NCBI GenBank assembly: GCA_037176845.1
Contig: JAYKXP010000077.1
Coordinates: 186,001-250,000, forward strand
Reading direction: 5' to 3'
From: Paramarasmius palmivorus
Taxonomy: Eukaryota > Basidiomycota > Agaricomycetes > Agaricales > Marasmiaceae
Length of the DNA: 64,000 bases
This document shows, piece by piece, positions 10,879 to 40,568 of this stretch. Under the pieces are notes generated by a model. The model was not told the DNA's origin. It did no database searches and worked only from the letters and a program-made list of their open reading frames with translations. Position 1 is the first letter of the stretch; every line of letters starts with the position of its first letter. The translations under genes were made by a program, and so were the position numbers.

Positions 10879-10893
10879 GGTTATGGGCCCCGC
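10879..10893 (+). other. Primer binding site (half initiator tRNA-Met type)
   Basis: The bases right after the LTR, GGTTATGGGCCCCGC, are nearly the complement of the anticodon stem-loop of eukaryotic initiator tRNA-Met (GGGCCCATAACC core). This is the copia-style primer, an internal tRNA-Met fragment, rather than the tRNA 3' end. Confidence 0.6.
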
Positions 10894-16243: not shown

Positions 16244-16257
16244 GTCCATTGACGACT

Positions 16258-16268
16258 GAAGCGAGGAG
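16258..16268 (+). other. Polypurine tract of copia element
   Basis: GAAGCGAGGAG lies immediately before the TGTTGA start of the 3' LTR, the expected site for plus-strand priming. Confidence 0.7.
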
Positions 16269-16685
16269 TGTTGAGATTATAGTAACGCCCGTAGTAGTCA
16301 CTAGACTCCGAGGATGTAACTTATCTCCTATCCTGATATTAATGATTAATTAATATAGCTGCTCCGTAGTGTACAACTCATGTAGAACACTCGTAGGTAT
16401 AATCGCTATTGGTAGCAGTAGTATAGTACATGCAATATGGGCATGTTGAACTCCACAACATGCCATTTACTTATGGTATAGTCGTGTATATTCGATCTTA
16501 CCATTACTTTACTCTATGTCTTACTTTATGCGTACATAGTTGTATTTCCAGTATATAAACTGTAGCAGATACGCTCTGTGGACAATAAGACTTTCTGTCT
16601 ATTCTCTGTGCTCTCTACCTCGTTAACTCTTCTCCACTTGGTAAGTGGTCGTCACCTCGCTCGCTACGCTGTTCCTGTTTCAACA
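16269..16685 (+). repeat. 3' LTR of copia element
   Basis: 417 bp copy matching 10462-10878 at every position I compared; followed by the GTCCC duplication. Confidence 0.95.
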
Positions 16686-17470
16686 GTCCCTGCTATTTGA
16701 ATAAGGCCATCGACGGAGGTATATGAACGCGATTGCGCAAAGTGCAATAACGACGACACCACCAATTGCACCACCAATGATAGCCTGAGTTTCTAGGTTC
16801 GTATGAGGACTCGGGGTCGGGGTATCGTGTGAAGAAGGTTCGGAGCTTGAAAGATGAATTAAAGAGCTTGGATGAAAGATATAGTGAGTGAGGCATACCT
16901 ATTTTGAATAGGTCCGGAATTGGGTGGAGTGCTACTACTCATATCTGTCGTTATGGGTACTAATGTCGATACGATATTCCCAATCTCAGGCAGGAGACTT
17001 CAGTGATAGTCTATAAGTACAAATTAAGAGGTTATAGAAATAGAAGGTAATTACCCATTCTCGTTCTCAGCCGTCAGGGTATACAGTCTAAGGTCAGTAG
17101 TCATCCAGAGTTTAACGAGGGGATTCTACTGAGGTACTTACCCATTAACGACTCCGTAGAAATTAGCCACGCAAAGACTAGGGGTAAAAGACGCATTACA
17201 TAGTTTCGACGCCTCCAGCGTATCATTCTGTTTTTGCAGCTTGAACCGTATCGCGGGCTGATCATCTCCCAGCCCAAAGTAAGCGAAACTCCACTTGATT
17301 TCGAGCTGTAACATTCCGTCGGACGGTGGACTTGATTCGTAATTGTGAATTGTGAGCGTGAGCTTTGGAGTCTGAGCTCCAGTTGCTACGATTAAACTAG
17401 AAATATGAGTATATCAGTTATATACGATACGGTAAAAGTGGGCGCACAGTGATAGTACAAAGAACAACAT

Positions 17471-20047: not shown

Positions 20048-20277
20048 CACCTATGGTGCCCGAGTAAATCCACTGATCTGTTGGACTGACAGGGGTACAT
20101 CAGCCCATCAGATGTGAAGGAAAAACCTTTGGCGGGGGTCGCCCTTCGTTACCACCTGTACATACCTTGATAATTTCCGATAACTCTGCAGGTCTATAGT
20201 CAAAGTTCGCAGTTCCGCTCAATGTCCTTCTGTCGGCGCTCTCTTCGGTAACTTCCGTTGGGCGCTGGCGTCATCGT
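20048..20277 (+). repeat. Left terminal inverted repeat of KDZ element
   Basis: About 230 bp, nearly identical to the reverse complement of 30291-30501. The main difference is an extra segment of about 20 bp (AATGTCCTTCTGTCGGCGCT at 20221-20240) present only on this side. Confidence 0.9.
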
Positions 20278-20546
20278 GTTGTTTCTTGTCCAAACAAAGT
20301 AAACGTTCCCGCCGCTGTCATAGCATCACCGTCGACCTTTGTCCCGACTCCCGAGTCCATCACATCCTGATGCCTGGGCCTGCTGTACATGTTCACCAAA
20401 ATCCTCATTCGGATTATCGCCGGCATTTTGATGTTCAATGGTTCGCTCACCAGTACAAGTTAAAGACGTCCTGTGCAATTTTTGAACATTTATTCGAGCT
20501 GTGTTGAAAAGTACGTTTGAATATGTACATCTATCTAAGCTTTCGA
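20278..20546. other. Subterminal non-coding part of KDZ element
   Basis: No gene seen between the left inverted repeat and the 3' end of the HMG-like gene. Confidence 0.4.
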
Positions 20547-22597
20547 CTACTCAAGACCTCTTTTCTGTCTATCCTCAGCAGCCTTTCCGATTGGCTTTGG
20601 CTTTGGCAGTGTTGGCTGGGTGTTATGCCCAGTCCAGTCCTCACCAAAAATTTTCTTTCGTTGCGGCACTCTACCCGTTTTCAAGGCTTTCCCACCGGCG
20701 TTCTCATCATCACCATCAACACTGCCTCTATCAGCACTCGGGTCTTGATCAACATGTGCAACAACGCCGGGAACGACATGAACGACGCCGGAATCATTTG
20801 CGAGGCCACCAGTTGGTGCTTGAGTCGAACTGTTGTCGCGAGAAGATGGTGGTGGTCCAGGGGGGTTGTCGTTTGATGATCCTTCAGACGTACCATCTTC
20901 CTTGGAGCCTTTGACAGAGCCTTTCTTCTTCCTCGCAGCTGGTGCCGACTTGGTGGATTTGGCGGACTTGGATGCTTGTGAAGGCAAAGACTTGGATGAG
21001 CCGGATGGTCTGGTAGCAGGCTTCTTGACTCTAGGTGCGTTCTTCGTTCGTTTGACAGGCGGCTCCTCAGAATCTGTGCCCGACTCGTCACCTCCTCCAA
21101 CACCCTGCCACTCTTGGTCAATTCCGGCCCACTCCTCCCCATCATCACCATCGCCATCGCCATCGCCATCGCCATCATCATCCTCCGTCCCGTCACTCTC
21201 TTCGCCACCTCAAGTCACCTCCACATGTTTCCGCTTCTGTGGGCCACGCTTCTGCCCAGCATCAGAATGGACTTTCCGGGGTTTAGAGGTGACTGTGCCA
21301 TCCTTCAAGCCCTTTTCATACTCGGTAACCCATTTGTTATGGTCTGCATCAGAAAGGCGACTAAAGCCGATCGAATTGTTGGCAAGGCCATTGTACAACT
21401 CTTTGAGCGGCTCGAGCGAATTGCTCATCTTGCTCGGGTTTTCAAATTTCGGGAAAGGCCATGCTTTGACGATGATGCCGTAGGGATGGGTGATCAACTT
21501 ATCGAACTTCTCATAGGGCACGACAGTGAATGCGACCTTGACGGGCGAGACCTCGTTGACTGCATCAACTATTTGACCCGTGAGTGAGAGGTCGGTTCTT
21601 CGTGACGTCGCTGACTCACCAAGTTTAGTTAGCATCTCTTCCCGAATTAGACGTTTGTACCACTTTGTCTGATCGCCTGAAGTCTTCAACATGTCTAAAA
21701 CTTGTAAGTATAGGTTTCATTGAAGCACTTGATGATAACTTACTGTTTGGGTCGCAACCAGCAATCGAGAACGCCTCCATCTTTGCCGCCAGGATCTTTG
21801 GGTCAAATCCCCAACCTTGCCGTATGATGATTTTCATGTAGTCGACCCAATTTGGATTGGTAAAGAACCACTTCGGGTCCATAAAAGGGTCGGAATCGCT
21901 GCGAACCATCAAGAACATTGCTTCGATCCCGCACCGAAGCTTGGCCACTTTGAGCTGCAGAAGGTATCAGCTTAGACGCATCACAGATGCAAGGAGACAC
22001 TCACCAGCTGAATTACTGCACTGACAATCTCTGCAGCACTCTTTGTTCGACCCTTTAGTGTCGGAAAATGAATCTTTGCCACCTCCTCAACCTGTCGACG
22101 TTCCTCAAATGCTTGAACAATTTTCTCCTTCTCCTGGTCGTTGAGGGCGTCGTATTCATGTCTGTACATCTCAACGAGGTCCTCAAGCTTCATGGGGTCG
22201 TGTCCAGCTGTAAAAAGTAGTCAGCTAGCATGTCAAACCCTCAAAATAGTTAAGACTTACTTTCTTTGAGTTCGACGGCCTTTTCTGACTTCCATGCATT
22301 GAATGAGTTTGTTACTGCCTGCGGCTTGGTCATGCGGAGACCATTCTGGAAGAACATGTTCAGGAACCAGCGCGGCTTCTTTTTATACTTGTCTGCGAGC
22401 TCTTCGGCGGTCTTTCGAACCTTACACATCCATTTCGCGATGTCCTTCTTGATATCCTGGCGTTCTTTTTCGGCTACGCGACGTCGTTCTTCTTTTTGGG
22501 CTGCTGTGAGCTTAATGTATACTTGCTTCGTGATCCTTCGGCGTGGGACAACAAGATTTCGAGGCACAGGAGCATTCTTGCTACGGTTACGACCCAT
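20547..22597 (-). CDS. HMG-like DNA-binding protein of KDZ element, one in-frame TGA
   Basis: Five exons (22261-22597, 22005-22207, 21744-21954, 21620-21700, 20547-21568), all phases consistent, 617 residues if the internal TGA is read. It begins MGRNRSKNAPVPRN. A basic, helical, HMG-box-like region (about 25-165) contains RWFLNMFFQNGLRMTKPQAV and EYDALNDQEKEKIVQAFEERR. Later comes a conserved block (DPKWFFTNPNWVDYMKIIIR, WPFPKFENP). The C-terminal third is low complexity: a DGDGDGDGD run, Ser/Lys-rich with nuclear-signal-like PPVKRTK and AARKKKG. A TGA at 21210-21212 (codon 397), between VEVT and GGEESDG, interrupts the frame; CGA (Arg) would restore it. The first 396 residues could still be made. 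KDZ-linked HMG-type proteins have been described in mushrooms; HMG assignment here is by pattern only. Confidence 0.6.
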
Positions 22598-22699
22598 AGC
22601 AAGAGGTAGTAGTGACGATATGGTGAGGAAAAAAAAGAAAATATTCAAGAGGAGGTGTGTTATCGGGCCGGTACAGTGTTTCGTGTGGATAAATCAAAT

Positions 22700-23278
22700 C
22701 TAAGGGCCCAAATCTTTCTCCTGATGCACGTCACCACAACCCAATTCCGCCTCCTCATGCGAAACACTAGAACTTTCATCCGCTTCATCATCACTGGACC
22801 CTGACCTGTTTCCCTGACTCTCCAGCTCCATATCTCTGGGCAAATCAGTGCGACTAAGTCCTAATCCCTCGAGAGTTTCAAGGTGTATCAGTCCTCGCAA
22901 GAGATGTACAGGAAGTTCGTTGCGTTGACCACCTTTTTCGATGAATGACCTTGCTATATTGCAATGGTATCGCAACTCATCAAGACTCTTTCTCTCTGCC
23001 CTCAGTTGACGTGCCAAGGGGCTCTCATCTCTCTCCTGTTGGTGGCGGCAGCGGATCTCATCTGAATGAGCTGTTCAGCCTTGTCAGAAAGGACCATAAA
23101 TTTTACTTACCTTGGTCACGACGTTTAAGCTCTTCTAAGAGCTTTGGCGTTACTTTCTCTCCGGGTGGCTTACTATCTGTGAGCTTTGTGAAAGTTACAT
23201 GGCAAGAATATCGCATTGAAGACATACACTCACTATCACTTTTCGTTTGCCATTCCGATTAGTATATACACGAGGCAT
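22700..23278 (-). CDS. Small hydrophilic KDZ-element protein, unknown function
   Basis: Three exons (23230-23278, 23111-23176, 22700-23061) give 158 residues with consistent phases. It starts MPRVYTNRNGKRKV, is basic in the first half (LLEELKRRD, RAERKSLDELR) and acidic/Ser-rich at the C-terminus (GSSDDEADESSS). No stop interrupts it. The first donor would be the less usual A|GTGTAT. The gene lies 103 bp upstream of the HMG-like gene in the same orientation. I do not recognise the family; a helical region around 50-100 is likely. Confidence 0.5.
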
Positions 23279-23497
23279 GGTTGTTAAGTTCAGTGGCGGA
23301 GAAGATAGAACGGCGAAATATATTTCACATTGAGTCCATCAGACGTTTCCAGGCCTTTGTCTAATTTGGAATATAAAAGCCTATAGGCTATCACTGATAA
23401 CAATTTAGAAAGGCATGGCTTCAAAAATCAAATACAAGAGCACATTCAGAACAATTATATACATCCAGGAACCTCTTGACTATGTACAGGCAGATAT
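23279..23497. other. Short spacer inside KDZ element
   Basis: AT-rich; nothing recognised. Confidence 0.4.
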
Positions 23498-24785
23498 TTA
23501 GCATTGGGAATGGAAAAGATAGTATATAAATTCAGCCTGTCCACTTGGAAGCTCTGGAAAGAACACCTGCATTCTCTCAATAAAGTCGTCCTGTGAATTG
23601 GCAATGGCATAAACAAAGCCAATTTGCTCTACTACCACCTGATTGAATCGGAAGCAGTTGAAGAACATCCAGCCAGCTGCGCCCAGACGCGCAGTCAAAT
23701 TCCGAGGTACAATACTGTCACCATCGACAAAAGGAGTCTGAGCACCGTCACTGCCTTGAGGTGGAGGAGAACGAATGGTGCTGCTGGACGGTGCACTTGC
23801 AGCAGGTGTTCGAGCTGACGGGCGTGGTGACATAAAGGCCTGTGCAAGACCAGCCGAGGTTCGGGAAGCAGAAGACTGTCCAGTGCGAGCGGGAGAGCTC
23901 CGTAGCAACGAGGGTGATCTGGCTTTCGAAGCTTCCACTACGTTGCGCTCTAAAATTTAGGGTGAGTTAATACCCATGTGCTATTGAATTCCCATGTGCT
24001 TACCCGATTTCATGGAAGGGTCCAGTACGGTTGCCTTTCCTTTGTCGCGCTTGGGGGTCTGTGGAGCTACGCCGGCATCGAGAGGTGTATTTGGCCTGGT
24101 CGGTGGTGAGGCAGGGACAGGAACAAAGGATGTGGCAATCATGTCATATCAGGGACTGCGACCATGGTTGATCATTGCAAAAACTGCGCCCATGAAGGAA
24201 CTATGTGTTTGGATGTGCCGGTTCGTAAGGCCACTTGGCATGTTCAAAGAAGGCTGAGCAAGTGATCTAAATTGAATAGTCAGAGGGTATACCTTTTGAG
24301 CTTAACCAACAACTTACTCATTACTGAAGACCCCAACCCGTTTGGCAAGGATGATAGCCCAGAAGTATTGCGATTCAGAATCCATGATGCGAGAGGCTTC
24401 AAGGAAGGGTTCCGATGTGTGAAGGAAGGAAATCACTGCATTGGCGTCGTTCTGGATATTCTGACGGAATATCTCTTCCACAGCACTCTGCATGAGGGAG
24501 AGAATCCGGTTGGCAATCAGATGGCGGCACTGTATATTAAGAGGAAACGGCGGGTGTTGGGATCCACCTGGAATGAATGGGCTGTAAATGAGAGGTGTGA
24601 TTGAGTGAATCAATGGCAAGGGAAAAAAAAAAGACGGCCTACAACTCGTGAATCTCGTACACGCCATAGGTAGCAGCGCCATAAGCGTTCGTGAAGACAA
24701 GATTTTGGGGATAGATAAAGACAACAACCAGATTGTCATCACTGAGAGTGCCGCTGGAGGCTGAGGTGCTGTTTTGGTTGGCCAT
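23498..24785 (-). pseudogene. KDZ-element protein of unknown function with in-frame TGA
   Basis: Four exons (24643-24785, 24318-24581, 24004-24266, 23498-23949) with consistent phases, 373 residues across the stop. It begins MANQNSTSASSGTLSDDNLV. An ordered first half includes VVVFIYPQNLVF, YGVYEIHE and an alpha-helical stretch (HLIANRILSLMQSAVEEIF). The middle is Pro/Ser-rich, and the end is a compact hydrophobic region (AGWMFFNCFRFNQVVVEQIG). A TGA at 24149-24151 (codon 175) separates GRSP from YDMIATSF; CGA would restore Arg. I do not recognise a domain. The gene shares orientation with its two downstream neighbours. Confidence 0.5.
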
Positions 24786-25539
24786 GGAAGTGGGGGAAAG
24801 AAAGAGTGTGGCAGAGAATCAACTTGGTCTTCACGATATCAGAGAATCAGATACAGTGCCGGAATGCCACTTACTGAAATAGGAAAAGGACATTCTCACA
24901 CCTCTACATTTATGGTGAATGGCGAGAATATCTGCCTATTGGATGTGATTTCACAGTTATATCTAGCCCTAGGGTATGGTAGATTAATGCTTATATTTGT
25001 GAAGTCAGAATATCTCATAATTTATTGCTATCGATTCACCACAATTGTACATATAGTGGTCTTTGCATCTTCGGCCTTCTCGGCCTTCAACCGACGTACC
25101 AATTTAATCATCTCCGCTCATGAAAACACTATAAAATCAGTGTTACAGTATGAGCTAGGATATATTAAGCTTACAGATGTAGAGCTAGTGGTCCCGCAGT
25201 ATCTTAATGGTCATGACATGACAACATGTGCAGCGGCGGGTATACTCGAGTATGCATTTATGATCTTGATGAACACGGAAAGTGTTTCTCTTCAAAGTTG
25301 TCTCTAACATATTACCTCTGAGTGGAATATTCTGTCAATATGTTCTCTAAACTATTCTTGATGGTTTCTGTGGCATTAAACTTGTAGCTGGCCATGCTAC
25401 AGCTAAAACATCAAGAGCGCTTATAGCGTGGTGATATATGGTGATCAGGCGTCTGTTACCATTCTGGGCGTCTGCTCAGCGTGGTGATTTTGCCAAGACC
25501 ACCATCATAACTCGCAGTCAACACTCATTCTCACACTCT
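24786..25539. other. Divergent intergenic region inside KDZ element
   Basis: Separates a minus-strand gene from a plus-strand gene, so it should hold two promoters. Open frames here look like shadows. AT-rich, no clear repeat. Confidence 0.4.
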
Positions 25540-26391
25540 ATGGATATCGAAGAGCTCCTCCGGGTGGACAATATCGATGTCGACAAAGTTTGCGATCAGG
25601 TTGCCCAACTCAATGATCGCCTCATTCACTATGTCTCACGTGAAATGGACCTCGAAAAGCAAGTTGAAAAATTAGAGGCGGAGAATAGATCACTGCATCA
25701 CGAAGTCACAGTGCTTGACCAATTCACCGAGGAACAGTCGGAGTATATTGAAAGGGTAAAGAAAGCAGCTCGGGAAGCACTCGAGGAAATTGATATGCAT
25801 GAATCAACTATTGGACGACTTGAAGCAGAGTTAAAAGAAGTGAAGGAAGACGAATGCCGTGAGTTATCAACATTCATTCACCAAGCTATCAGTATTTACA
25901 TAACATGCAGGGAATGAGAAGTTGATCAAGCTATTGAAGAGCAACATGAAGCATTGGCAGAATGAAGTTGCTCGGCTTAAAGCTAGGTACCAGAACCTTC
26001 TTCAATTGGGTCTCAACCTCATTCCAGAGTCGTCTCTGTAAAGCTCTGACTCGGACATTCATGATCAGCAATCACTGAAGTGAGTCCCTTTCCATGTGGT
26101 ATCAGCACACATGTCAATTGTACCCTATTACAGGCAAAAACCTGAAAGCGTAAGCGATGTCAAGACAACCGAGATGCCAAGGTTTGTTAATATCAATGTA
26201 CCTTCTACCTCTACTCACTTGTGTTCAGCAAAAACTGAACCAAAGCCAATGAGGCTGCAGCTAGGTATCGAGCAACTCACCGCAAACTTTTGTCGTTGAA
26301 AGAGAGAGAGCGACGTGCAAGTAAGCCTCAAATTCTTTTCGACACACACAAATGTCTGATGTGTCATTCAGGAACACGCGAAGCTCGGTGA
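25540..26391 (+). CDS. Coiled-coil protein of KDZ element
   Basis: Starts MDIEELLRVDNID at 25540. Exons 25540-25858 and 25911-26041 give a 149-residue open product ending LIPESSL. It is almost wholly coiled coil (MDLEKQVEKLEAENRSLHHEV, then VKKAAREALEEIDMHES). Beyond the TAA at 26039-26041 the same frame continues as SSDSDIHDQQ, splices to QKPESVSDVKTTEMP (26134-26181) and, past a TGA at 26236-26238, into the basic helix ATHRKLLSLKERERRA (26229-26320), ending near 26391. The ancestral protein was probably longer and bZIP-like in layout, with the order coiled coil then basic helix. It points toward the 3' end of the transposase gene. Family not recognised. Confidence 0.5.
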
Positions 26392-26621
26392 CTTACTAAA
26401 AATGGTCTTTCCTAATTCTCACTGTTCGGAAAATCATTGGGCGACATTGGGAAACTTTGGTGGCTAGCGACTTGGGGAACACATAGAGCTTGTTGACTAA
26501 ATAATGCCTTTTAAATTTTGGCCCTTAATGTTATTCCAGGCACTTATGAACATGTTACCCGGAGACTAAGAATAACCTAACCATGCCGGAGTTTTGCCTG
26601 CAGTACATACAATCTACTTAT

Positions 26622-29600
26622 CTATCCGTCTAATGTCACCTTCTCCATGAAATCAACAAGCTTTTGAGGCTCGACATCATGCCTTATTAAACCATCCATT
26701 CCTTCTCCGTCCTTGAAATTAGGCATGCAGGTGGGCTTAGTCCATGTATATTGGGGTGCTTCATCAGTCTCCCAGTCCATCGGTGCCCGTGTTAGACCAA
26801 GGACAATGTTCGCCCATTCGGGTAAAGGTGCAAATCCAGACTTGTACCTCACGCGGTGTCAATGTTCACCCGGAGTAAGATCCCCTGGAAACCAAGTCAA
26901 CGTCCAAAGGATAGAAGAAGAACACATAGCCATACCACTAAAACCAGGCAAAAGAGTTATCTGGATGAGTCTTTCTGCTATACGCCAGTGAAGCCTCTTC
27001 CTGCGGCGATATTCATGCTGTAAAAATCTTTTGAAATGTTGCCGAGTTGGATCCTCATCATCGCCATCTTCGATTTCATCAATAGCCAACCAGAAGTCGG
27101 CTTCGTCATCAATCATAAATGTAACGAGGTGTTTGATCTCTACATTCAGGCGAATGATTTCTTCCCTCGCACGTTTAAGGCCGAAATGAAGTTGCATGAC
27201 CTTCTGATTTGTAGGTTTTGCCCGTTCGAGACGTTCAACGTTAACGTGTGTATCCCTGAGGAGATCGAAATCGGCAACTGAAGCCATGTTCAGAATTGAG
27301 GCCCAAGGGATTTGTTCGCGCCCAGGTACTCGTAGCGCAAGTTCGTTGTACCGCTCTAATGCATTACGAACAGCTCCGGCCCGTGCTTTCAATGTGTTTG
27401 TGATCTTGTCTCGTTGGTGATACCCTGTACATCCATCAGATTGTTGTTCAAGAAGATCAAATTGGACGGTACCGATATCACTAGCTTCCAACTTGGTCAT
27501 CTCCATCAATCGTGATACAACCGCATGTTCGAGATCATCAACTGCTTTGCGATATTCATGTTCTACCGCACCTTGCTTAGCATCAAGATATGCAGCATCA
27601 GCTCGTTTCCACCTTGGATAAATCGCATTATCATCCTCGAAGCAAGCAAGCTCCTCTTGAATCAATCCCAGTTTTTGGTAGGTTGATGCGTTTCGGCTCT
27701 GGACTTGCTTGATCTGTTTGTCCGTCCACCCACGCGCAGCCGCAGTGCCAAGTTTCTTCCACTCTATGTGTGCGTCCCTGGAAGCTTGCCTAGATACAAG
27801 CCATCAGGAAAGAGCTGTTGATTTGATTTTGAGTGATCACTTACTCGGCTGCCCAGAATCTTTCCAAAATTTCAACATAGTCCAACTCGTATGACTCTCT
27901 TGCAGGCTCAGTGGATCTTGCGCTGAAATACTCCGCCTCTTGCTTTAGAAGATCCTCACATATCTCTGGCGTAATCTGTAGTTCTTCGCATGACCTTTCC
28001 AAGGTTGGTTCATCTTTGACAATGCGTTCAAGTGCCTGCCAATAATTCTGATAGATGAAGTTGGCTAATAATTTGTTAGGTAACACTCAAACAAATGAAA
28101 GCGGTTAAACACAAACCTGACAATGCAAATTTGTCAAGATCATGAAAATAGAAGAATTCGGAGAATTCCTGGCGTCGGTGAAAAAGATTTGTGAGCCGCG
28201 TGATTGATGCTAAGGCATTTGACAAGGAGAAGGTTCGTTCACAGGGCTCAAAGTCCTCAAGACCAACACCTTCCTTGTACATGGGATGATATCCGAGCTG
28301 ACAAGGCCGGTTGTGTGCATAACCGTGGAAAGCAGGAACGACACCGGTGATCCCACTGCTCTTCACTTTCTGACGTAGCATGGGACTTCGATGTAGCGTC
28401 TTTACAAACGCGCACCAGATGTCATAGCCGATGCCAAGCTTCTTGCCATATTTGTCGATGAGAGAATTGACAATCGCTAAGGGGTATTTCATCCTGTATC
28501 TTAGATGAGTATGGAAAACGAGGCTAATGAAGTATACATACAACTCGCCGCTTCGGATCATATCACAGAGTTGAAGAACATGGCCATGCCGACAGACCGC
28601 AACAAAGATACCCGATATCGCAAACAATTTGAAGGTACGTTTCTGAGCATCTGGTCCTGCTGCCTTCCAACGTTCGACGCATGTGTCGTCGCATGAGGTT
28701 AGGTCCTTGGTCTCATTTTCATTGAGCCATGCAATCTCGTCGGGCGCAACTGTGGTTGGCTCTTCTGGATTATCAACATCCATGTCGTCACTTGTCTGAT
28801 AGGGACATGTTGAGTGCTTCGGTAACCATGTGAAAATTGTGAACTGACCAAGTGTGCATTCCATCCAGCTTTCACCTCATTGGCAAACCGGTCCACTTCT
28901 TCCGGTTCTAGCCATCGGAAATGTGGGAGATATCTCTTGTCTATACGTTCGACACCTGCCCGAACCTCTGAGTCAACCAGCTTTGCTGAGTTATTCCCAT
29001 CAATTGAGATGAGAATGCGAGGCTCAAGAGGTGTTTCCCCTGATAGCTCATAGTTGCATGGAGGACAAGTATGTGTCGTAAATGATAGAGAATCATTCCG
29101 GTTCAATGCATCCATCATCCGGTTGTCAAGTGCACGAATGATGGTCAGGTATGCATCATAAGCACTGCGTCGCTGGTCTTCTAAATGATCATGCCTTGGT
29201 AACTTGATTTTGTGAGTTCAAGACATGTGGGACCATTTATGAGCCAGCTTACACCGTGTATGTACTGAAGGGCCTTAGACAAGCCATCAATCGTGAATTT
29301 GGGGCAAACTCGATGTATTTGACGGTAAACACTAAACATGTGAAGCGGGAATGCAACCTGAGGCTGTTTGGGCGTTGCGCCAAGATACCCATGCCGTACA
29401 AGACTGTCGTTGACTGACTGAGCATCAGACAGGTGAAAAAAGGTCATAGTACGGTTGACTGGCGGAGCACAAAGTCATTGAACAGGAACTCGTAGTGTGT
29501 AATGAAAGCGTACCATTGAAATCAATTACAGGTATTTCCCATGTTTCAACATGGTCATGCTGGGATGGAGGTCCGACCGCAGAAAAGGCAAGATATGCCT

Positions 29601-30111
29601 TGAGGAGATGTGGTAATTGAGATGTCCAGGAATCCACTTGCTTCTGGATCCGATCAGCTCGAGTTCGCGGGTCATTGAGCCTGTTATCTTGTTAATACAT
29701 TGAGGCTCATGAATGCTGGTCAACGTACTTTGTTTTTCTTGTCATGGTGCTCAAGAGTGTATGTAAAGAATGTTCGTCGCCTGCGTGACTGTTGAGAGAG
29801 CCTTCTTCGCCAGGTGGTAGAGGTAAGGTGTGGATGTCGAGGTGCCTGTCATTGGTCGGGAGATCGTCCTCATGGTCACTTGTGTCCCCTGCATCAGCTA
29901 GAGCGACACAAGCCTCATAGGAAAGTCCTGAATAACAATGTCAATGATAGAAAAAATGAAAAGATGTCAACGCACCACTAAACATTGCCTCCTCATCCTC
30001 TCGGTCAATTTCCCAAGCCTCCTTCGGAGTCCTCCCGCCACGTTCAAGAGCATCGCCGTAGATGAAGGAAACAGTACTTGATGTCCCATATCGCCTTTTA
30101 TTTCGGCCCAT
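26622..30111 (-). CDS. KDZ transposase
   Basis: Ten exons with consistent phases: 29976-30111, 29729-29927, 29514-29680, 29253-29458, 28849-29202, 28542-28795, 28117-28499, 27845-28064, 26936-27789, 26622-26884; 1011 residues if one TGA is read. The N-terminal part matches the conserved leader of these proteins (QLPHLLKAYLAF, LVRHGYLGATPKQPQVAFP), then CPPC (282-285). Probable catalytic acids of the RNase H fold are D304 in DGNNS, D465 in GYDIWC and E520 or E523 in GVGLEDFEPCER. Family motifs SGIFVAVCRHGH and FHGYAHNRPCQ are present. Residues 640-924 are helical. A TGA at 26859-26861 (codon 933) comes after TPGEH; the frame continues HRVRYKSGFAPLPEW for 78 more codons, and CGA would restore Arg. 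The catalytic domain is upstream of it, so a shortened enzyme could still act. It would cut and join at the terminal repeats. Confidence 0.92.
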
Positions 30112-30290
30112 GTATTTGAGTTTGCGAGTATATGTGAAAAGAGAGGAAACTTCAGAACGTCGGCGATGATCCGAAAGAGGAAGCAATGGGAGACCAGACC
30201 AAGACACGGACACGTATGGGCGTGAATGATGTAAATTTTGTCAACGCGGAAATGCGGAATCGGGCCCGTACAGTTGTGTAACGTGTTCAA

Positions 30291-30501
30291 ACGATGACGC
30301 CAGCGCCCAACGGAAGTTACCGAAGAGTGAGCGGAACTGCGAACTTTGACTATAGACCTGCAGAGTTATCGGAAATTATCAAGGTATGTACAGGTGGTAA
30401 CGAAGGGCGACCCCCGCCAAAGGTTTTCCCTTCACATCTGATGGGCTGATGTACCCCTGTCAGTCCAACAGATCAGTGGATTTACTCGGGCACCATAGGT
30501 G
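30291..30501 (-). repeat. Right terminal inverted repeat of KDZ element
   Basis: 211 bp, reverse complement of the left repeat at 20048-20277, ending CTCGGGCACCATAGGTG. Transcription of the transposase starts just inside it, so the promoter probably overlaps the repeat. Confidence 0.9.
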
Positions 30502-30508: not shown

Positions 30509-30803
30509 GCGTTGATCATCAATGCATTCTCCAAACTCGAGTGTCTCTCCGAGGATGCGTTGTGTCAAGATGGCTTTGGGGGTATATACATGCGGATGCA
30601 CAAAAGGATGTTATTGGAATTGGTGGATCTTGCGTACTGGAGACCACCTGGTCACGAGGCGGACGCGATCGGTGCTGAGTTTCTCAGCCACCCTGTGGAC
30701 GTCAAGGTCGAGCGTCGGGCGCAGGATATGAATACAGATTCCGACTCTGATTCAGGCTCACATTCAGATACAGATACAGCAACGCCGAGGAAGGAACGGT
30801 ATA

Positions 30804-30949
30804 CCGTTCAAAACGCTCAAAAATTATTTTTGAGTGAACATATATATTTTTGACCTATAAACATATACACACACATATACTGGCATGAGCATACACATAT
30901 ACACACCTGCATACGCGTGGATTCATACATCGTTTTTGACCGAGTCCTA
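30804..30949 (+). repeat. Left terminal inverted repeat of second element
   Basis: Matches the reverse complement of 39706-39897 closely for the first 100 bp (through ATATACTGGCATGAGCATA), then less well. Contains TTTTTGACC twice and CA-rich ATACACACACAT runs. Confidence 0.85.
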
Positions 30950-31221
30950 TAATACATACGCATGTTCGGAGCATGTATATACAAACATGAGTAAGACCAA
31001 AGTTCAAGTTCAAATCAATGATACACATCAAGGCAGTTAAACACCATTAACAAAGTTCTTCATTAAGATAAAGACTGGTATCACTGGCTTAAAGCCAATA
31101 GTTTACTGACAATTAAAGTAACTAGTTCTATTCTACCACCCTTCCGCCGCACTACTTAGTGACCATCCCTCTGCTATCACCGACTCCGATCAAAGACTGT
31201 ACGAACTCAAACAATTATTGA

Positions 31222-32906
31222 CTAAAGGTCTTCCTCCAAGTAAGGAATCACAATGATTCGTCCACGAGTCCATGGGTTATCATTGAGAAGGGAAGAGAAG
31301 GACGAGGTGATGGGGTCAAGGGATAGGTCTTCTTCCTCAGTTTCAGTATCTGAAATTCAGTTAAGTTTAAGGGCAGCTTATCGATGGATCAATAAGTACC
31401 TTCAATGGTGTCAGCAAGCTTCCTTGATCCAGCGCTGCTGATGCTCGAGATGCGAGCCGACTTCCGGAGAGGTCTTGGAGATGATTCGGAATCAGAGTCC
31501 TCTCTTGCACGCTTGTTTGGGAGTCGGACCTGCGTGCAAGGGGGAGGAAGGAGAAAGGAGCTCACAGAGCTCTCGGATGCGGAGACCTCATCAACATCCA
31601 TATGATCGCTGTCTCCGTCCTCAACGGCGGTGGCACTGGCAGCATCGGTGGCATCAGAGCCATCAGAGTCGCTCCCCTCGCCTTCTTCGGAATCAGCGCC
31701 TGAGGGACCTGCAACGGTGGCGATAAGGTCTTGAATGGTGTCTCCTTTATCAGGCAAAGGAAGTTGGTCTGACCAACGGGTTAGGCTTGGAATGGCACAA
31801 GAACAAAAGAGAGCCTTACCTGCGAATCTAGCAGCTGAGGCACAAAGAGCGTTGTACTGGGTGACGAACTTGTTGAGATCGTTAATCTTGGCATGCTGAT
31901 GAATTTCATAGTATTTGATCTTATCGCAACACCCTATTGGAAATCGTCAAGCCTAAACAACAACTAAGGAAAGAAATCAATCATACCAATGTATACCACC
32001 CCAGCTCTTTTTTCTGACCGATTCCAACGCTTCTCCCACATCGTCAGAGCTGTGGGATCATCCTCATGGCCCCAGGTTAGGTAGTTCCGACTGGCACACC
32101 CCAACACACTCCAATCAGACCAAGAGGTCTCTCTCCGAAGCTGCGGAAAGGCCTTTCGAAGCATCTCGGTGGTCTGGGCATGATTGAGTGCCGTGTTGAA
32201 TGGAACACCTTCTGGGAAATCATAGACCAGCTTTAGGTTACGATACACTCCGAGGCAGTCAGAGGCTGTAGGAGCACGAGCGTTTCCATCCTCAATGGAC
32301 AAGGATCCATCCTATTAAAAGGGTTAGTCTTTCTATCAAGGAAGAAACTATCCACGCTTACAGCTGCTGCAGAGACTCCATGAGGAATCAAAACCATGGC
32401 TTTCAGGTATTTCTCGCCGCCCTTCTTGATGGCCGCTTGAGGCTTGGGTGCTCTGAGAAGACAGGGGATTCAGAGCAAGGATTTAATTTTGTAAAAGAGA
32501 CGCACAGATTTGGCTTATCGGCTTCCTTGCCTTTGCCTTTGAGCCCACGGTTTGCCTCGTCGTTGGCTTTAGCTACCTTTGCAGCAGTGCTTGACTTGCC
32601 GTTGTCGCCCAAAGCCTTCACGACCGCATTCACCATGGCGTCCTTGAGCTCTACCTTCTGCTTCTTCTTCTTCTTTCCTGGTTGAAAGAGGTGAGGTTTG
32701 TTGACCTTGGGTTTTTCCTCCTCGGTGGGGTCGAGGTCTGCTTCGGTGGTCTCTTGCGCGACGTCGTTGAAATGAGCGTCCTTGGGATGAGAGCACTCCA
32801 AGCAGTACTTTCCAGTACCGAGGAATGCTTCGCAGCCACAAGGTTGTTTTTTGTTGGATCTTGGGTTGAGGAATAAAATTTGGCAGGGCCCTGTGTCGTC
32901 TGTCAT
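31222..32906 (-). CDS. Cys/His-cluster protein, unknown function
   Basis: Six exons with clean GT-AG borders: 32506-32906, 32362-32452, 31987-32311, 31820-31933, 31400-31768, 31222-31349. No internal stop. Near the N-terminus a probable zinc-binding cluster reads CGC-x9-C-x2-C-x2-H-x4-H (from PCGCEAFLG through ECSHPKDAHF). A Lys-rich segment (GKKKKKQKVELKD), a folded middle part (YRNLKLVYDFPEGVPF, SWSDWSVLGCASRNY) and an acidic, Ser-rich C-terminal third (SEEGEGSDSDGSD) follow, with the basic NKRARED and KSARIS as possible nuclear signals; it ends IVIPYLEEDL. The layout suggests a nuclear DNA- or chromatin-binding factor. I cannot name the family. Confidence 0.6.
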
Positions 32907-34266
32907 ATTGACAGCAAAATGGCGGGAGTGGAGCAATAAAATAAGAAACGAGGGAGAGGAGGTAATAAAAAGGCGGTTAAACTTAAAAAGAAAGGGCAGG
33001 AGCGAGGAGAGAGCAAGAAAAGAGCGACAGAGAAGCTGAGATGGTGGTTGAGGTTGAAAGGGAAAATTGCACTGTGTTCCCGTGACTACCAGCCGATGGA
33101 GGCGTTACCTCAATGACCCGCGATAGCAACGCACGGAATGGTGTTTCGAGCTTCCGGTGCCTTGGCTGCAGGGTTTGCCCATGAGGTCTCAACGAGGCTT
33201 TGTTTGTTTATGTTGACTTGACGGGGTTGAAGGGCCGGTTCTTGAGGCCATTTGCGATTGATCTTGAGGATGCTGGCAAAGATCTTGAGGCTGACTCGTG
33301 CGCGGTTCAAAAAACGCAGATACAGCGTTTATTGCTCAGAAAAGAACGTCAAAAAAGGTGGGCTATCTAATCATCAAAAGGCATGGAGGGGTGCAGGCCG
33401 TATGTAAGATCGTAAAGTATGACGGCGCTGATGAAACAGCTCTCTGCAGTCAGAATGCAGAACCAGCAGGCCCTAACCATACTCGCGTTAGCCCATCAAC
33501 GCAACAATTGAGACTCAGAGGGGCGTACCATGCTGGTGTTCATGTTCCGCGCAAGGTTTGCCCTTGTAAGCGCAGCGTGTCCGGGTGAGTGCAGGTGAGG
33601 GGTGCGCTGTTGACACTGAAAGCAGACTGGAATAGAAATGGGAGTCAGCGACTGGTTGAACAGCGATGTTGACCATGCTGACCTTTTTTTCCCCATGGAA
33701 TCCATGGCATACTGGCTGCTCCATGAGCTCTTGTGATTCGGTTGGCATAAGCAGGAGCAGAGGGGTAGGAAATCCCAGGCTTGAACTGCAGGCCGTGATG
33801 AAGGGAGGGGACGGGAGTTGCAGGGTGGTGGTTGCAGGGAAAGGGCAAAGGGCAAAGGGCAAGGTGTCATTGCCCTTCTCCCAGGCCGTCGGCGTTTGCA
33901 CAGCTCTGCGGCGCTTCATCCGAGAAAGTGCCGGAACAGCTGGGATCCTGAAAAGTCAGGTTCACCCGACCTGGGGACCGATAAACCGTGTGCCCCAAGT
34001 CACCGTTAACAGCACCATCCGTAAACGCAGGCTGTTTTCACAATAGCTGCGCATTCACCGGCCGTTGTTGAGGGGAGGAAAAAAAGAACATCAATCACAG
34101 CAGATATGCTCTTATATAGATCATATCATGTGATCTTTCCACGGTCCTTTGTTGAAGACAATCAACAGACACGTAGATCACATGTTGAGTCGCATGGGTA
34201 TGTTGATCCTTGATGCTGTGACATTGCTGTGACACATCACTGTTCCGAAGTTGCCTTCCTCCTCCA
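32907..34266. other. Non-coding or unassigned 1.36 kb inside second element
   Basis: No gene could be assembled. On the minus strand a possible exon pair (about 33500-33850) would code a Pro/Ser-rich stretch then VCFQCQQR, hinting at a decayed zinc-cluster gene, but no longer exon chain or start could be supported. A GGGCAAA-type short repeat lies at 33842-33862. Confidence 0.35.
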
Positions 34267-36086
34267 ATGTATCTCACTCGCCGAGTAACGTCTCTCTTCA
34301 CGCCTCTCCAAAAAGCCGGCATTCTCTCCGGTGCCTTTAATCTTGATGACGTTGTATGGGAGCGGATGTTCAATCCAATTGAAGAGCTGAGGAATGTCGA
34401 CCCTGATTTTGCAGGGCTTGAATTTCAGTGAGCAAACCAACCTTTTTCTATGGCCTGATGCTAACAGCCACACAGGGACCTGGAGGAGCCTCAGAGAATG
34501 CCAATCCCTCCCTCCAAAAGACCCCATGACGATCTTGACGACGACGTTGAACCGCCAAACTGGGACTGGGATGACGATTCCAACGATGGCCCCTTCGAAC
34601 ACGAGTCTCTGCCAAGGAAACCCCTGAAAACCCAAAAGACCGCCAGTAAGGGATCAAAGAAGAGGAAAAGACCTCAAGGGAAGAAAACTGCATCCAAAGT
34701 CGTAAACTTGGGTGCCTCGTCATCGACACCCCCGAAGGTGGAATACCAGTGAGCCTTCACCGTACTTGATTGGTGTCAAAACCTCACTCCTTCTCTAGGT
34801 CTTCCTTCCAACTGCCGCCCCAAAGTTTCACAAAGGCTGGGTTGAGCATGCAGGAGCGGAAACATGCACGCAGCACTGTTCGCCGTCAACTGGGACGCCA
34901 GACACTTCTCGCCACCACTGGTTTCATTGACGTTGAGAAGGATACTCGACTGTCTTCCACCGGTTGGATGGGGGTCAATGCGAATTCAAAGTTCTGCAAT
35001 CAAGTAAAGGACGTACGGGACAACGGCGGTGGTCTGAAGGGAATCACACTGATATTTTACGAAAGGTGCGCATCCTCTTCTCTGATTCTTTCACCCCTAA
35101 CCTTTTGACAGGGTTGAAATCTTCATCTGTGACTCTCAAGGCCGCATTGTCATCTATCGATCAGCAGTCACCGATAACATGAAGCGCCGCCTCCTCCTGA
35201 GGGTCATTGAAGAGGCGGAAAACTTTCAACAGGAGACATCACCCCCAACTCATAAGGACTGCGAGGACAACGCTCAAGGTTTCCATTGGTTCAAAATCTC
35301 TGGGTTCGATCGAAACAACAAATCATGACCAACCCTTAGCGCTTGGCATCTAAACAATGCCGATGCTCATGATCGCTTTTTTGCAAAGGGTAGCGTCTTC
35401 TCAGAGCTTACTGATTACGGCTGCTCACTTGTGAAGGAGCACTTTCCCATGGTTTACCAGCGTTTCGCGAGCTGCTCAGAAGATATGAAGAATCGATACT
35501 CCTGTGAGGCGCCTTACGGGGGAATCTTCTTCAACTTTTGCTTGAACAGTGTTCGTTTCGGTGTCCCAAGAGTCTTCTGTCGCCCCCATGTTGACTACAA
35601 AAACATTGCGCTCGGTGTTTGCATGGTTTATGTCTACGGCCATTTCAATCACCGAGAAAAATGCTGGTTGGTCATCTGGGAAGCCAGCGTTGCTTTGGAG
35701 CTGCCCCCTGGAGTGTTTGTCATCTATCCTTCTTCTCTTTTTCTTCATTTCAACATGGACTTAGATCGTGAGTGGCTTCAGTTCTTGTTTTGGCCCCTTA
35801 ATACTAATCGCAGTCTACAGAGCTGGATTTCGTCGTGACCGAGGGTGAAGATAAGCCCACCAAGGAGAACAGCATTCCTCTCTGCTCTTGCGGTACCCCA
35901 ACTCCGGACCATGGTGCTGCCTGGGAGAGGGCTGATGGTCGTGGGTCAATAGTTTGGTTTAACCAGGCCACCATGTTTCAAACCTCGGAGCTGGGCTATG
36001 ATACCGTCAAGGAAGCAAAAGCGGCAGGTGGCTCCGGAACGTGTAAGAAGAATGCAGACGACGTCTTTAGTAAAGTATCACGGTAG
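34267..36086 (+). pseudogene. TET/JBP-like 2-oxoglutarate/Fe(II) dioxygenase, one in-frame TGA
   Basis: Five exons (34267-34427, 34476-34748, 34799-35065, 35112-35767, 35821-36086), consistent phases, 541 codons. The N-terminal part is charged (KRPHDDLDDD, GSKKRKRPQGKK, a nuclear-type signal). The dioxygenase core begins near residue 150 (ARSTVRRQLGR, STGWMGVN). Fe(II) ligands: H393 and D395 in CRPHVDYKN, H446 in SSLFLHFN; the probable 2-oxoglutarate Arg is R493 in GRGSIVWFNQ. The C-terminal QTSELGYDTVKEAKAAG is typical of mushroom TET/JBP relatives. Known members oxidise 5-methylcytosine in DNA. A TGA at 35326-35328 (codon 306) between NNKS and PTLSAWH precedes the active site, so this copy should be dead unless read through; CGA would restore it. 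Confidence 0.8.
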
Positions 36087-36109
36087 AATTACTTGTCATG
36101 TAAACTACT

Positions 36110-38175
36110 TCATACAAAAGCCTTCCTGCGATTCCAAGTGTAGACAGATTGCAAGCGCTTGAGCCCACATCTCAGCACGTGGGCGCCAAATTGAGTCCGG
36201 CAAATCAACCCTGACCTCCTTCGCTTAGACTTCTTCAACATCCAAAATGATGGATACTCCCCATTTACCCACTCCTCTCGTAGCACACCATAACCTTCTG
36301 GAAGAATTCTCTTCATTCGAACATCCTGGAAAGCTTGAAGAAATACAGGTTCCAAATCCCGAAGTCCTTGGAACGGGTTTCTGCTTTTTGGAGCTTTGAC
36401 CGAAGGAATAAATTGATGGTCGATATCTGCTTCAGTATCCTCCCAGTCAGACTCCTCACCATCCGATCTACCTTCTTCTACCGTGAAATCAACATGATCC
36501 AGGGCTTCATCATCCAAGAACCCTGCTCCAGTCTGATGCTCCTGTCGTTCTTGCACTCGCCCTTCCCGCCCATAGTACTCTCTAATCTCACTTTCGCTCC
36601 ATTCCTCACAATCATCCGGAATGACAGGCTCACTGGATTCTGGATCTACCGTTTCTGGGAAATACATGCCCTCATTTAGCATTCCCATCAGTCGCATACC
36701 CTTAACAAATATCAGTGCTTGAAAGAGCAGAGGACTGGAAATCTTACCAGAGGTGTTTTATCCTGTCCCTCGCCAGAGATAGGATGAGAGTTCCATTCCT
36801 TCACAAAGTCGTCGCAGTCCGTGTCAATCATGCCAAGAAATAGCTTATGAAGCAACCATAGGTGTGTTGGATTCTCCCGGTCCAATCCATGGAGCGCCTC
36901 CAGCCTAAAAAAGAAGGCCCTCCAGCGACGGGCAAACTGCCTTCCTACTTCAACCCACAATCTTTCAATGCGAGTATTATGAGTAGAGCTATGCCCAAAG
37001 TCAGACTGTATTACCAGGTAACCAGAAGTAAGACTCACGATCCCCAAATGAAAGAACCACGGTTTAGGCCTCTTTTCATAATCATGTATATCGCGATAGC
37101 TTTGTTCTCCTTCCCACGGTCTGCTCGAATTCGAGAGGGCAGTCCATGCTTCTTGCAAGCAATCTGGAGAAGCCGAAGTACAGTGATGGCTCGGTTGTTG
37201 GTATGGGTTCGTAAGGCAACTATCTGGAGACGAAAAGGTAAAGTCATTCTCACCACGAAAATAAAGAAATCCCACTTACCATTTGGGAGAAGCCATCAAC
37301 AAACCCATGGATCACAAAGCCCCATAAGATAAGTTTGTGATGTCTATCCACATGCCATAACGAATTCGGCCTCTTTACTCTATAGTCTCGCCGTTTAATA
37401 ACCTTGGTGGCCTGCAGCTTCCTGGAAACCTTTGAGACTCTGTTGAGTGACTGATGGACACGATATCTTGGAATTTTGATTCCGTGGCTTCCCCGTATGT
37501 GGCCTGTGACATATCGCCCACCTGATCCTAGTTTAGCATGATGATACTTCTTTACCATCGCATCAAGTTCATTATCAGAAACCTTCGGAAATTTGTGATC
37601 GATATGAGACTCGTCCAATCGGTTCGTCAAGGTATTCACAGAGACCCCAATAGCACGCGCGATTGAGGTTTTTGTGAGGCCTTTCTTCGGGGATACTGCG
37701 GATGCAAGGAATGAGGGATCAATTTGCTTTCTAGGCCTTCCTGGTCTTCCAGTGCGAACGATTGTGACTGGGTCTTCATAATAGACATTGGTTTCATCCC
37801 TTGAACATCCTTGTAATCAGATACAGCTCATGGAACAAGTTAGACTTACTTCTCCTGCGCTACTCCAAGCGCATCATTTATTCTCTTAAGGTCTTTAGCA
37901 AGAACTACCGTCGACTCCAACAGCCAATCAATAGGTAACTCCTCCTCCTCTTCGCCTTCGGCAAGTGCATACAGTGTAGATAAACCAGCAGTGAGCCTCT
38001 CTTTTTGGATCTGAAGCCTCAATGGATCTGACTCCTGTGATAGAAGTTGAGAAGCGGAGATGTGCAGGGTATTTAGTTCATGGTGAGCTTGATATATGAG
38101 AGGGGACCAAGCCTGAGTCTCTGAGTCTGATGTTGAGGGATAAGGCGGTAATGGGGGAAAATTATTGGAAGCCAT
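36110..38175 (-). CDS. Integrase-core (rve-like, DD34E) transposase
   Basis: Five exons (37850-38175, 37280-37799, 37039-37223, 36748-36988, 36110-36700), consistent phases, 620 residues, no stop. The N-terminus is helical and acidic. An AT-hook-like RTGRPGRPRK (about 124-133) leads into a helix-turn-helix candidate (TKTSIARAIGVSVNTLTNRL). Catalytic residues: D260 in LWHVDRHHKL, D317 in IRADRGKEN and E352 in HNTRIERLW, with 34 residues between the last two. The family block RRWRAFFFRLEALHGLDR and a C-terminal acidic domain follow. Members are abundant in Agaricomycetes as integrase core domain proteins; the usual DGHHKL is DRHHKL here. Its 3' end lies 23 bp from the convergent dioxygenase gene. 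It is the best candidate for the enzyme that moves this element. The IS3EU superfamily is one possible home, but I am unsure. Confidence 0.85.
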
Positions 38176-38373
38176 GGGAGTGCAGGAAAGAAAGCAGCTG
38201 CGATGGACATGGACGGGCGTTCTTTAAGAGGAATGGCTTAGATAGGAAGGTGTTACATCATGTCACAGCCTTGTGACTGGGCACCGGTCACATGTGCCAG
38301 CTGGCAACAACGTGGGAATTAACCAGCTTGTCCTCCGCCGTCATCCTACTTCCAGTCATTCCTTACTTTCATT

Positions 38374-39526
38374 ATGTCCGCTATCAACTCAGAGACCACT
38401 GAAATACCACCAACTACCCCACAAATCAACCTTCATGGTCAGTTTTTTCTCAATCCCACTTTTTTGGTTTTTGCTGTAAGTCCCTGTATCTCATATTCAT
38501 TCACTCCAAGAACTGACAGTTCAAGTGCGAGGGTGTAGTTTTTCGCCTTCCCCTAGCCATTTTGTCTTGACGTCTACCTGTTATTCAAGATATGCTGGAG
38601 TTTGTGGGGGATGATGTCGTTGTGGATGAGGGTACGGTTGAGAAACCGTTGCTGCTACCGATGCCTTTGAAGGAGTTTGAGGCAGTCTGCAAGCTCCTCT
38701 TTGATGGGTGCGTCTTAAGTCTCTCGCTGTATCTTCAAAACTAACTCATCCTCAGGGACATGCAGGGAAGCAGCTTTACCCCCGAAGAATTATTGGACCT
38801 TTACCAAGGCTGTCGCTACCTCCAATACGAAGAAGGCTTGGCCTGGGCAAGGCGCCGCTACTCCATCGCCTGCTTCCAAGTGGACCCTTATGAGAAACTT
38901 GTGCAAGGAATAGTTCTCTCCGAACCCAGCTGGATCACTAGCAGCCTTTGTGACAGCTTTCATTCTGGTTTCCTTCCCCTGCCCACACCGAAACAAGGGC
39001 GTAAGTCTTCCAATAACAACACAATGCAATTTATTAATCATGCTTTATTCACGGATCAGATATCTTAAGTGATGCTGGCTGCTCCTGGGTCATCATGATC
39101 GTTGCGAGTGCCAATGAAGTTTACAAGTCCAATGCTGCAGATTGCCTCAATACGCCGCCCAAGCCAGAGTCTTCCCATACCTGGTACCATCACAGCTGTC
39201 GAAACCATCAAGCTTGCCTCCAGGCAGTCGAAACTGGGTGGAAGATGGTGCGCAAGCGGATGCCCAGTGACATCTGCCCTCCTCAAGGTGTTTACTGCCT
39301 TCTTTCCTTCCGGGAATACCTCTCTGCTGCACCATTCCCCCGGATGCATAATGAATGCTGTGCGTCCTTCATTGAAGACGTCTCTAGCCGCGCAGAGGCG
39401 CTTCATGAAGACATTATCCTCGCCGTCGCCTCCAAGATTGAACAGATTGCAGACAAGGAAGCTCAGCGTGCACGAGCTCGCAAGGCCGCTACGGAGAAAG
39501 CTGCGGAGAAGGCAATGGAGAAATAG
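38374..39526 (+). pseudogene. BTB/POZ-like protein with in-frame TGA
   Basis: Four exons (38374-38475, 38526-38707, 38756-39000, 39060-39526), consistent phases, 332 codons. The first 90 residues look like a fungal BTB/POZ fold (VVFRLPLAILS, then RLPVIQDMLEF, then PMPLKEFEAVCKLLFDG). The region after that (YQGCRYLQYEEGLAWARRRY) resembles the helical extension of Agaricomycete BTB proteins. The C-terminus is a charged helix (KEAQRARARKAATEKAAEK). A TGA at 38568-38570 (codon 49) lies between AILS and RLPV; CGA would restore Arg. Such proteins mediate dimerisation or ubiquitin-ligase bridging elsewhere; the role in the element is unknown. It is divergent from the transposase gene with about 0.2 kb between starts. 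Confidence 0.6.
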
Positions 39527-39705
39527 CCGGTCATTCAATCTGCATACTGATGTTCTAGTCTATCGTAGCGTTCTGTGTACTTAACATACATCATTTTAAC
39601 ATGGACTGATCCCTCGAAATGAAGTCTGAGTTGGAGGCTTTCTGATTTCTGAGTTTAGAGATGATCTTAGGCGTAGACCAACAACTTTGACGCGTTGTAT
39701 TCTAT

Positions 39706-39897
39706 GACTTGGTCAAAAATGACTTGTGAGTCCATATCCATATGTGTATGTGTGTGTGTATATGCCCATGACAGGATATGTGTGTTCGTGCGGTAGGTAT
39801 GTGTATGTATATGCTCATGCCAGTATATGTGTGTATATGTTTGTAGGTCAAAAATATATATGTTCACTCAAAAATAATTTTTGTGCGTTTTGAACGG
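39706..39897 (-). repeat. Right terminal inverted repeat of second element
   Basis: Reverse complement of the left end, with an extra GT/AT-rich segment of about 50 bp. The inner limit is placed where TTTTTGACCAAGTC recurs, matching TTTTTGACCGAGTC at about 30930-30945. Confidence 0.8.
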
Positions 39898-40568
39898 TAT
39901 AGATGTCGAATTGAGTCGGGCTGGACAGAGAGGTGCATACTACATGCAAATGGTGAGGTATAGGCTGGAGGAACTAGTGCACCTCATTTATTATGCGCCA
40001 CCCGAGGGATGAGGAGCAAAAGGGACATTCGACCACATTGTCCCAGATTGCGACGGTGAACGTTTCTCCCAATGGACATCTGGATATTGACCATGGTGAT
40101 AACTCAGATGACGACTCGGATGGCTACGACTCAGATGGCTACGACTCAGATGACTACAATGGTTCAGTAATAGTCGCTCTGACGACAATAGCTCCAGCGA
40201 CAATAGCTAAGAATGTGTTTGTTCCTCAGACAACATTTGCGGTGATCGTGATGATCACAGGAGTCCAGGTGCACTCTATCCCAACGGACTGACGCAGCAG
40301 GAGCAGGATTTTGTTGCAGCGCAAGCTGTCGATTACTGAGAAAGAACGTCTTAATCTCATCATGTTGATGATTGGCATGGCGAATGGTGAGTACACGAGT
40401 CACAGAGGATGATTTGATTCACTTAATTGTCTCCACGATCGCCTAGGGTACACAGAGCTGCCAAATTTCATGAATCCCAATCTTGGGAATAGTTTGGACG
40501 AAGGAGCTGAGACAGATGGCAGTGATCGCACCGTGATGCCACAAGGCGCCACACGTCGTAGTCGTTGA

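Follow-up and report, generated by a model that had tools for sequence, protein, structure and literature searches.

Which transposon owns a TET/JBP-like dioxygenase gene when elements of two classes lie side by side in a mushroom genome, and what might the enzyme do there? The question is raised by a stretch of 64,000 nucleotides (the window) on contig C77 of Paramarasmius palmivorus (Marasmiaceae), where such a gene lies within one element and a KDZ element stands directly beside it. An earlier note on this DNA had proposed that a transposon with terminal inverted repeats (TIRs) and a non-KDZ transposase carries the dioxygenase, and had offered this as a second transposase lineage with such an enzyme. 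The genome (68.3 Mb, 393 contigs) bears out the carriage, which is found as a unit in all three of the four-gene elements described below. The lineage is not news, as TET/JBP genes have been described in 11 transposon lineages, including IS3EU (Kojima, December 2025, PMC12730594). We consider it likely that the element is an IS3EU family member of P. palmivorus that took up a TET/JBP dioxygenase gene, the enzyme being predicted to ease silencing.

Ends, copies and genes of the element

The element has defined ends, its sister copies are flanked by 6-bp target site duplications (TSDs), the same four genes occur in three elements, and the transposase has a DDE integrase core. The inverted ends pointed out in the earlier note, CCGTTCAAAACGC, are exact at 30804–30816 (+) and 39885–39897 (−) and form part of TIRs of ~109 bp (Table 1). 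A second full-length copy with these ends lies at C148:78751–87861; it is 98.5% identical over 9.1 kb, has other flanks and is bordered by the TSD GAAACA. A diverged relative of 10,196 bp at C47:311319–321514 has 214-bp inverted repeats (96.3%), termini of TATGGC...GCCATA and the TSD CAGACC. The earlier note had held that different ends at other copies, or absence of the dioxygenase from all of them together with its capture through a nested older KDZ element, would speak against its reading; C148 shares the ends, those of C47 are homologous, and both carry dioxygenase and transposase, whereas four short elements with the same ends (L010, L014, L016 and L017) carry neither gene. Exact 6-bp TSDs flank five of the seven end-pairs compared (window, C148, C47 and the four short elements), the exceptions being L016 and the copy in the window; L018, with one recognised end, was excluded from this count.

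The genome contains 14 exact matches of the inverted 13-mer. Ten of them are element ends; the other four, at C6, C19, C20 and C86, were discarded because they are not. When up to 3 mismatches were allowed, a pattern scan found 21 ends of this kind, from which nine end-pairs were read (C77, C148, C63, C56, C64, C108, C195, C198 and C204). Gene content was compared at six of the nine (C77, C148, C63, C56, C198 and C204), and two of these, C77 and C148, hold the four genes. The flanks of the window element have an element-free paralogue on C21, with which homology stops exactly at 30799 and 39902. Chance inverted repeats are thus ruled out by the copies, the TSDs and this empty-site break. Between the flanks, C21 holds 782 bp (L046:412–1193) that are missing beside the window element, and a deletion next to the insertion may be the source of the absent TSD.

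All three elements contain a cysteine-rich gene, the dioxygenase gene, a convergent rva_4 transposase gene and a BTB-like gene in equal order and relative orientation. The convergent pair is separated by exactly 23 bp, as the earlier note had it; the two outer genes were not on its list. The cysteine-rich gene has genome matches at three loci only, which are the three four-gene elements, and the BTB-like gene has none beyond them (both at E 0.001). The BTB-like protein (P0177) owes its label to the UniRef name 'BTB domain-containing', and the protein collection holds a single match to it at E 1e-8, which is from P. palmivorus itself.

The transposase matches Pfam rva_4 (PF24764) at 1.4e-59, and after splicing 34 residues separate the second D from the E, so that the DD34E integrase core read from the letters is correct. 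NCBIfam matches of P0057 are to IS481 (1.2e-13) and IS3 (9.3e-9), both far below the models' cut-offs; together with rva_4 they point to a DDE transposase related to IS3/IS481. It had also been called intact, which holds for the catalytic domain; a 7-nt gap leaves that domain open and untouched but puts the last 36 residues out of frame relative to C148 and C47. According to PMC10045372, IS3EU elements end in TA..TA and usually have TSDs of 6 bp. The element is probably an IS3EU member, because its termini are of the TA..TA form (TATACC..GGTATA, and TATGGC..GCCATA at C47) and 6-bp duplications accompany them in sister copies. Some IS3EU-type loci of the genome, such as C118, C13 and C199, are TET-less and share the rva_4 transposase with the four-gene elements; that of C118 is 47–52% identical, and C118 has no dioxygenase, BTB-like or cysteine-rich match.

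A TET-like dioxygenase and its place among known types

The HxD...H and distal Arg motifs noticed earlier could all be assigned to codons (Table 1), and the iron triad is kept, as HVD or HID plus H, at 13 of 13 loci of this genome; none of them has the HxE of the PE type. The predicted structure of the dioxygenase has a TET-like double-stranded beta-helix fold. When it was compared by VIA-align with the top 1000 chains of Foldseek, the best match was CcTET, and CMD1 was also among the matches.

The window copy is decaying, with a stop in the dioxygenase as well as the shifted transposase tail. The gene does lie within the ends as the earlier note described, but it is not intact there, with an in-frame TGA at codon 306 of our model. 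The NCBI model VNI00_014206 (P0001, 305 aa) ends at this TGA and is 100% identical to our prediction before it. A 51-nt intron that skips the stop was ruled out, as it would delete a stretch conserved in 37 relatives, where the G is invariant and 90% or more retain the D, R, N and K. The Pfam scan, homologue list and genome search used a model with that intron, and the conclusions are independent of this choice. Under the same gene model the dioxygenase of C148 has no internal stop, and that of C47 (P0002) is full length.

TET-carrying IS3EU transposons are known from Pucciniales (PU type) and Tuber indicum (PE type, HxE), and all their families contain an alpha-kinase gene (PMC12730594). The P. 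palmivorus elements have in common with them the IS3EU class, the 6-bp TSDs and a dioxygenase gene that is flanked by the transposase gene on one side and a further gene on the other. C47 (TATGG..CCATA) fits the ends given in that paper, TAYGG..CCRTA, and the window and C148 copies, with TATACC, do not. In place of the alpha-kinase, for which the four gene models gave no Pfam match, the cysteine-rich and BTB-like genes are present; the host is an agaric, and the enzyme is HxD rather than HxE. Among Agaricomycetes, enzymes of the AG or PE type are described for Kyakuja, Zisupton, EnSpm, Plavaka and Helitron2, and the main text names no IS3EU carrier there (PMC12730594). Our limited literature search, in sources partly available to us, found no other report of one. 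TET-carrying IS3EU transposons are therefore a known kind, while the host group, the gene set and the enzyme subtype appear to be new, which would add mushrooms to the hosts of these transposons.

The AG-type enzymes of Kyakuja and Zisupton, which are close to CcTET, are homologous to the dioxygenase but diverged (28% identity over 123 columns). Compared with AG-like fragments, the P. palmivorus subtype has ~45 more residues separating the distal His from the Arg region, and it reads GRGSxVWFNQA where they have FxMYxAGGLFRW. Its carrier is IS3EU, and its other neighbours are of the Helitron and CxC6 kinds. Neither the AG nor the PE type seems to fit this HxD enzyme well. Pfam Tet_JBP (PF12851) has no match in the dioxygenase (E 1) or among the 37 relatives; AG-like fragments also fall below its cut-off, so that the model is insensitive here and we do not treat it as defining. 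With a TET-like subtype that Pfam models miss, the number of TET genes in fungi may have been underestimated.

Relatives of the dioxygenase and their neighbouring transposons

The dioxygenase clade occupies at least 13 loci of the genome among the matches listed, three of them inside IS3EU elements. At C9 and C19 the gene lies just upstream, on the same strand, of open frames that exceed 2,200 residues (to the end of the stretch examined) and carry DUF6570, Helitron_like_N and PIF1 helicase. These loci (L022 with L044 on C9, L029 with L043 on C19) are possibly TET-carrying Helitrons with an HxD enzyme. C73 and C13 have in common a 2.4-kb block with a frame that converges on the dioxygenase. 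At C13 this frame is directly preceded by a CxC6 domain, which is a cysteine cluster associated with KDZ. The frame has no significant Pfam match and is presumably the tail of a KDZ-type transposase. At C15, C18, C30, C182, C196 and C378 no transposon family was recognised in the subset of frames scanned. A separate 2.4-kb block, 79% identical, lies beside the gene at C30 and C182 (L024:341–2793 and L031:11–2438), and the frames scanned in it have no Pfam match. None of the ten loci outside IS3EU has a transposase like that of the IS3EU elements, a BTB-like gene or a cysteine-rich gene within ~3 kb, or a KDZ match (PF18758) within 30 kb among the matches listed.

In an unrooted tree of 41 rows, the ten rows from P. 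palmivorus cluster together (100/99). So do the three dioxygenases borne by IS3EU (100/98), to which the C73/C13 pair is nearest (97/95). A weaker, unrooted core-only tree of 25 rows with all 13 loci gives the IS3EU group at 95/94, its union with C73/C13 at 94/92 and all P. palmivorus loci at 85/89. The homologue list holds 56 proteins, all of which bear names of Agaricomycete genera. Adjacency by NCBI locus tags covered 28 of the 56 (9 from P. palmivorus and 19 from Marasmius), and two of the nine from P. palmivorus adjoin an rva_4 transposase among the matches listed.

It has been reported that AG-type TET genes show no transfer between superfamilies (PMC12730594). We see an even chance that the present clade is a fourth, undescribed TET/JBP type of Agaricomycetes (HxD, with the longer stretch before the Arg, invisible to Pfam) that serves as a shared anti-silencing cassette passing between unrelated transposons: one host-specific clade carried by IS3EU and adjoined by Helitron and CxC6/KDZ-type genes. 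The gene of the IS3EU element probably came from a pool of related dioxygenase genes, several of which adjoin transposons of other types within the genome.

CpG decay, function and rival explanations

The window and C148 copies differ by 125 substitutions, of which 83 are CpG-type transitions; per position, these are 19 times as frequent as other changes. Of the 83, 57 decayed in the window copy and 26 in the C148 copy. The simplest reading is that CpG sites were methylated and then deaminated. Since these transitions dominate the differences, the two copies were probably methylated in the past despite the enzyme. Such decay fits a host that methylates the elements, giving a motive for a dioxygenase, and shows that protection was incomplete. 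A TET-less IS3EU pair, C13/C199, has 15 CpG-type transitions among 17 substitutions; these loci (L047/L048) are 99.4% identical over 2,975 bp, and 13 of the 15 changes decayed in C199. The older or more diverged pairs C11/C279, C73/C13, C30/C182 and C9/C19 show no CpG enrichment (~0.6–1.0 fold), and changes are too few at the C47 ends (1 of 4), in the window flanks against C21 (2 of 10) and in L033/L036 (2 of 4).

We suggest that the TATACC ends are where the DD34E transposase would act, possibly aided by the cysteine-rich and BTB-like proteins, and that the dioxygenase would oxidise 5-methylcytosine (5mC), possibly also other methylated bases, on element DNA. Such oxidation could ease silencing of the element by CpG methylation.

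Several observations weigh against an IS3EU element with an anti-silencing TET enzyme. The window copy lacks a TSD; the dioxygenase has no Pfam match at all at E 1, and its 37 relatives give only scattered weak ones; a sequence-profile search of the PDB returned no TET, which came from the fold comparison alone; and we found no printed activity for this subtype. No protection by the dioxygenase is demonstrated, because CpG decay is equally visible in the TET-less C13/C199 pair. The pairing of dioxygenase and transposase is seen in one species only, as none of the 19 Marasmius dioxygenases (four tag series) adjoins an rva_4 transposase among the matches listed (120 of 231).

The dioxygenase might be a passenger, captured by chance, unused by the transposon and now decaying, which we judge unlikely. 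The premature stop in the window copy would agree with this, as would the ten further clade loci that lack the partner genes nearby. Moreover, of 20 rva_4 loci counted in the genome, three carry the dioxygenase, and for the remaining 17 the matches listed (82 of 131 candidates scored) include no dioxygenase within 9 kb. However, the motifs, place and orientation of the dioxygenase are kept in two element families that have diverged to 51% protein identity, the C148 and C47 genes are free of such a stop, and the ratio of nonsynonymous to synonymous substitution rates (dN/dS) is 0.32, though calculated from few changes.

We give a similarly low probability to an enzyme that modifies bases for a purpose other than escape from silencing, such as a hypermodified base or the removal of 6-methyladenine. 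CMD1 and CcTET, both structural matches, have other or additional activities (PMC12730594), and the longer stretch before the Arg region sets the subtype apart from AG-like fragments. On the other side, CcTET, the best match, oxidises 5mC (PMC12730594), and the window and C148 copies bear a decay footprint of the 5mC type.

We think it very improbable that the gene is part of an older KDZ element which overlaps the IS3EU element or is nested in it: the KDZ element is only 298 bp away and the C73/C13 clade beside a CxC6/KDZ-type frame would allow a past KDZ-type donor, but this neighbour has its own ends, an exact 7-bp TSD and no dioxygenase match inside it among the matches listed, and C148 and C47 both carry the dioxygenase, while the KDZ matches listed (150 of 365 candidates scored) include none on C148 and, on C47, one that is more than 180 kb off.

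An IS3EU element that took up the gene remains our preferred reading. With one enzyme clade in or beside three transposon kinds, together with TET-less relatives and a record of CpG decay in a single genome, the idea of a transposon-borne demethylase becomes testable by comparing methylation of sister copies.

The KDZ neighbour and other features of the window

The KDZ element, which the earlier note had rightly placed beside the IS3EU element and outside its ends, contains a KDZ transposase frame (4.4e-59); within the IS3EU ends no KDZ domain was found. The warning that gene-neighbourhood signals of the two might be mixed is sound at this spacing. Two Kyakuja families of Laccaria have 7-bp TSDs and CA..TG ends without inverted repeats (PMC12730594); the KDZ neighbour shares the TSD length but has long inverted ends.

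Table 1. Positions of the IS3EU-type element, its genes and motifs, and the adjacent KDZ element in the window.
Feature	Position	Strand	Details
IS3EU-type transposon	30800..39901		9,102 bp; ends TATACC...GGTATA; no TSD at window copy
Left terminal inverted repeat	30800..30908	+	~109 bp; 93.6% to inverted 39795–39901
Right terminal inverted repeat	39795..39901	-	partner of 30800–30908
Accessory gene, N-terminal Cys/His cluster	31389..32906	-	no Pfam family; approximate splice model
TET/JBP-like 2-oxoglutarate-Fe(II) dioxygenase gene	34267..36086	+	exons 34267–34427, 34476–34748, 34799–35065, 35112–35767, 35821–36086
Premature in-frame TGA	35326..35328	+	codon 306 of model; window copy
HxD iron-binding motif	35587..35595	+	His-Val-Asp codons
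Distal iron-binding His	35746..35748	+	
Conserved Arg of GRGS	35940..35942	+	presumed 2-oxoglutarate ligand, from position only
DD34E rva_4 transposase gene	36110..38175	-	exons 38175–37850, 37799–37280, 37223–37039, 36988–36748, 36700–36110
BTB-like gene, P0177	38374..39526	+	no Pfam family; approximate splice model
KDZ (Kyakuja-like) element	20048..30501		~230-bp inverted ends; exact 7-bp TSD ACCATTC

Neither Rfam families (at the gathering threshold) nor tRNAs were found when the window was scanned. The segment 41900–63500 contains many repeats of 67–81% between its parts and is apparently a cluster of related genes. A Copia long terminal repeat (LTR) retrotransposon at 10462–16686 has 418-bp LTRs that are 100% identical and one open gag-pol frame of 1,547 aa (11600–16243, +), and is probably a recent insertion.

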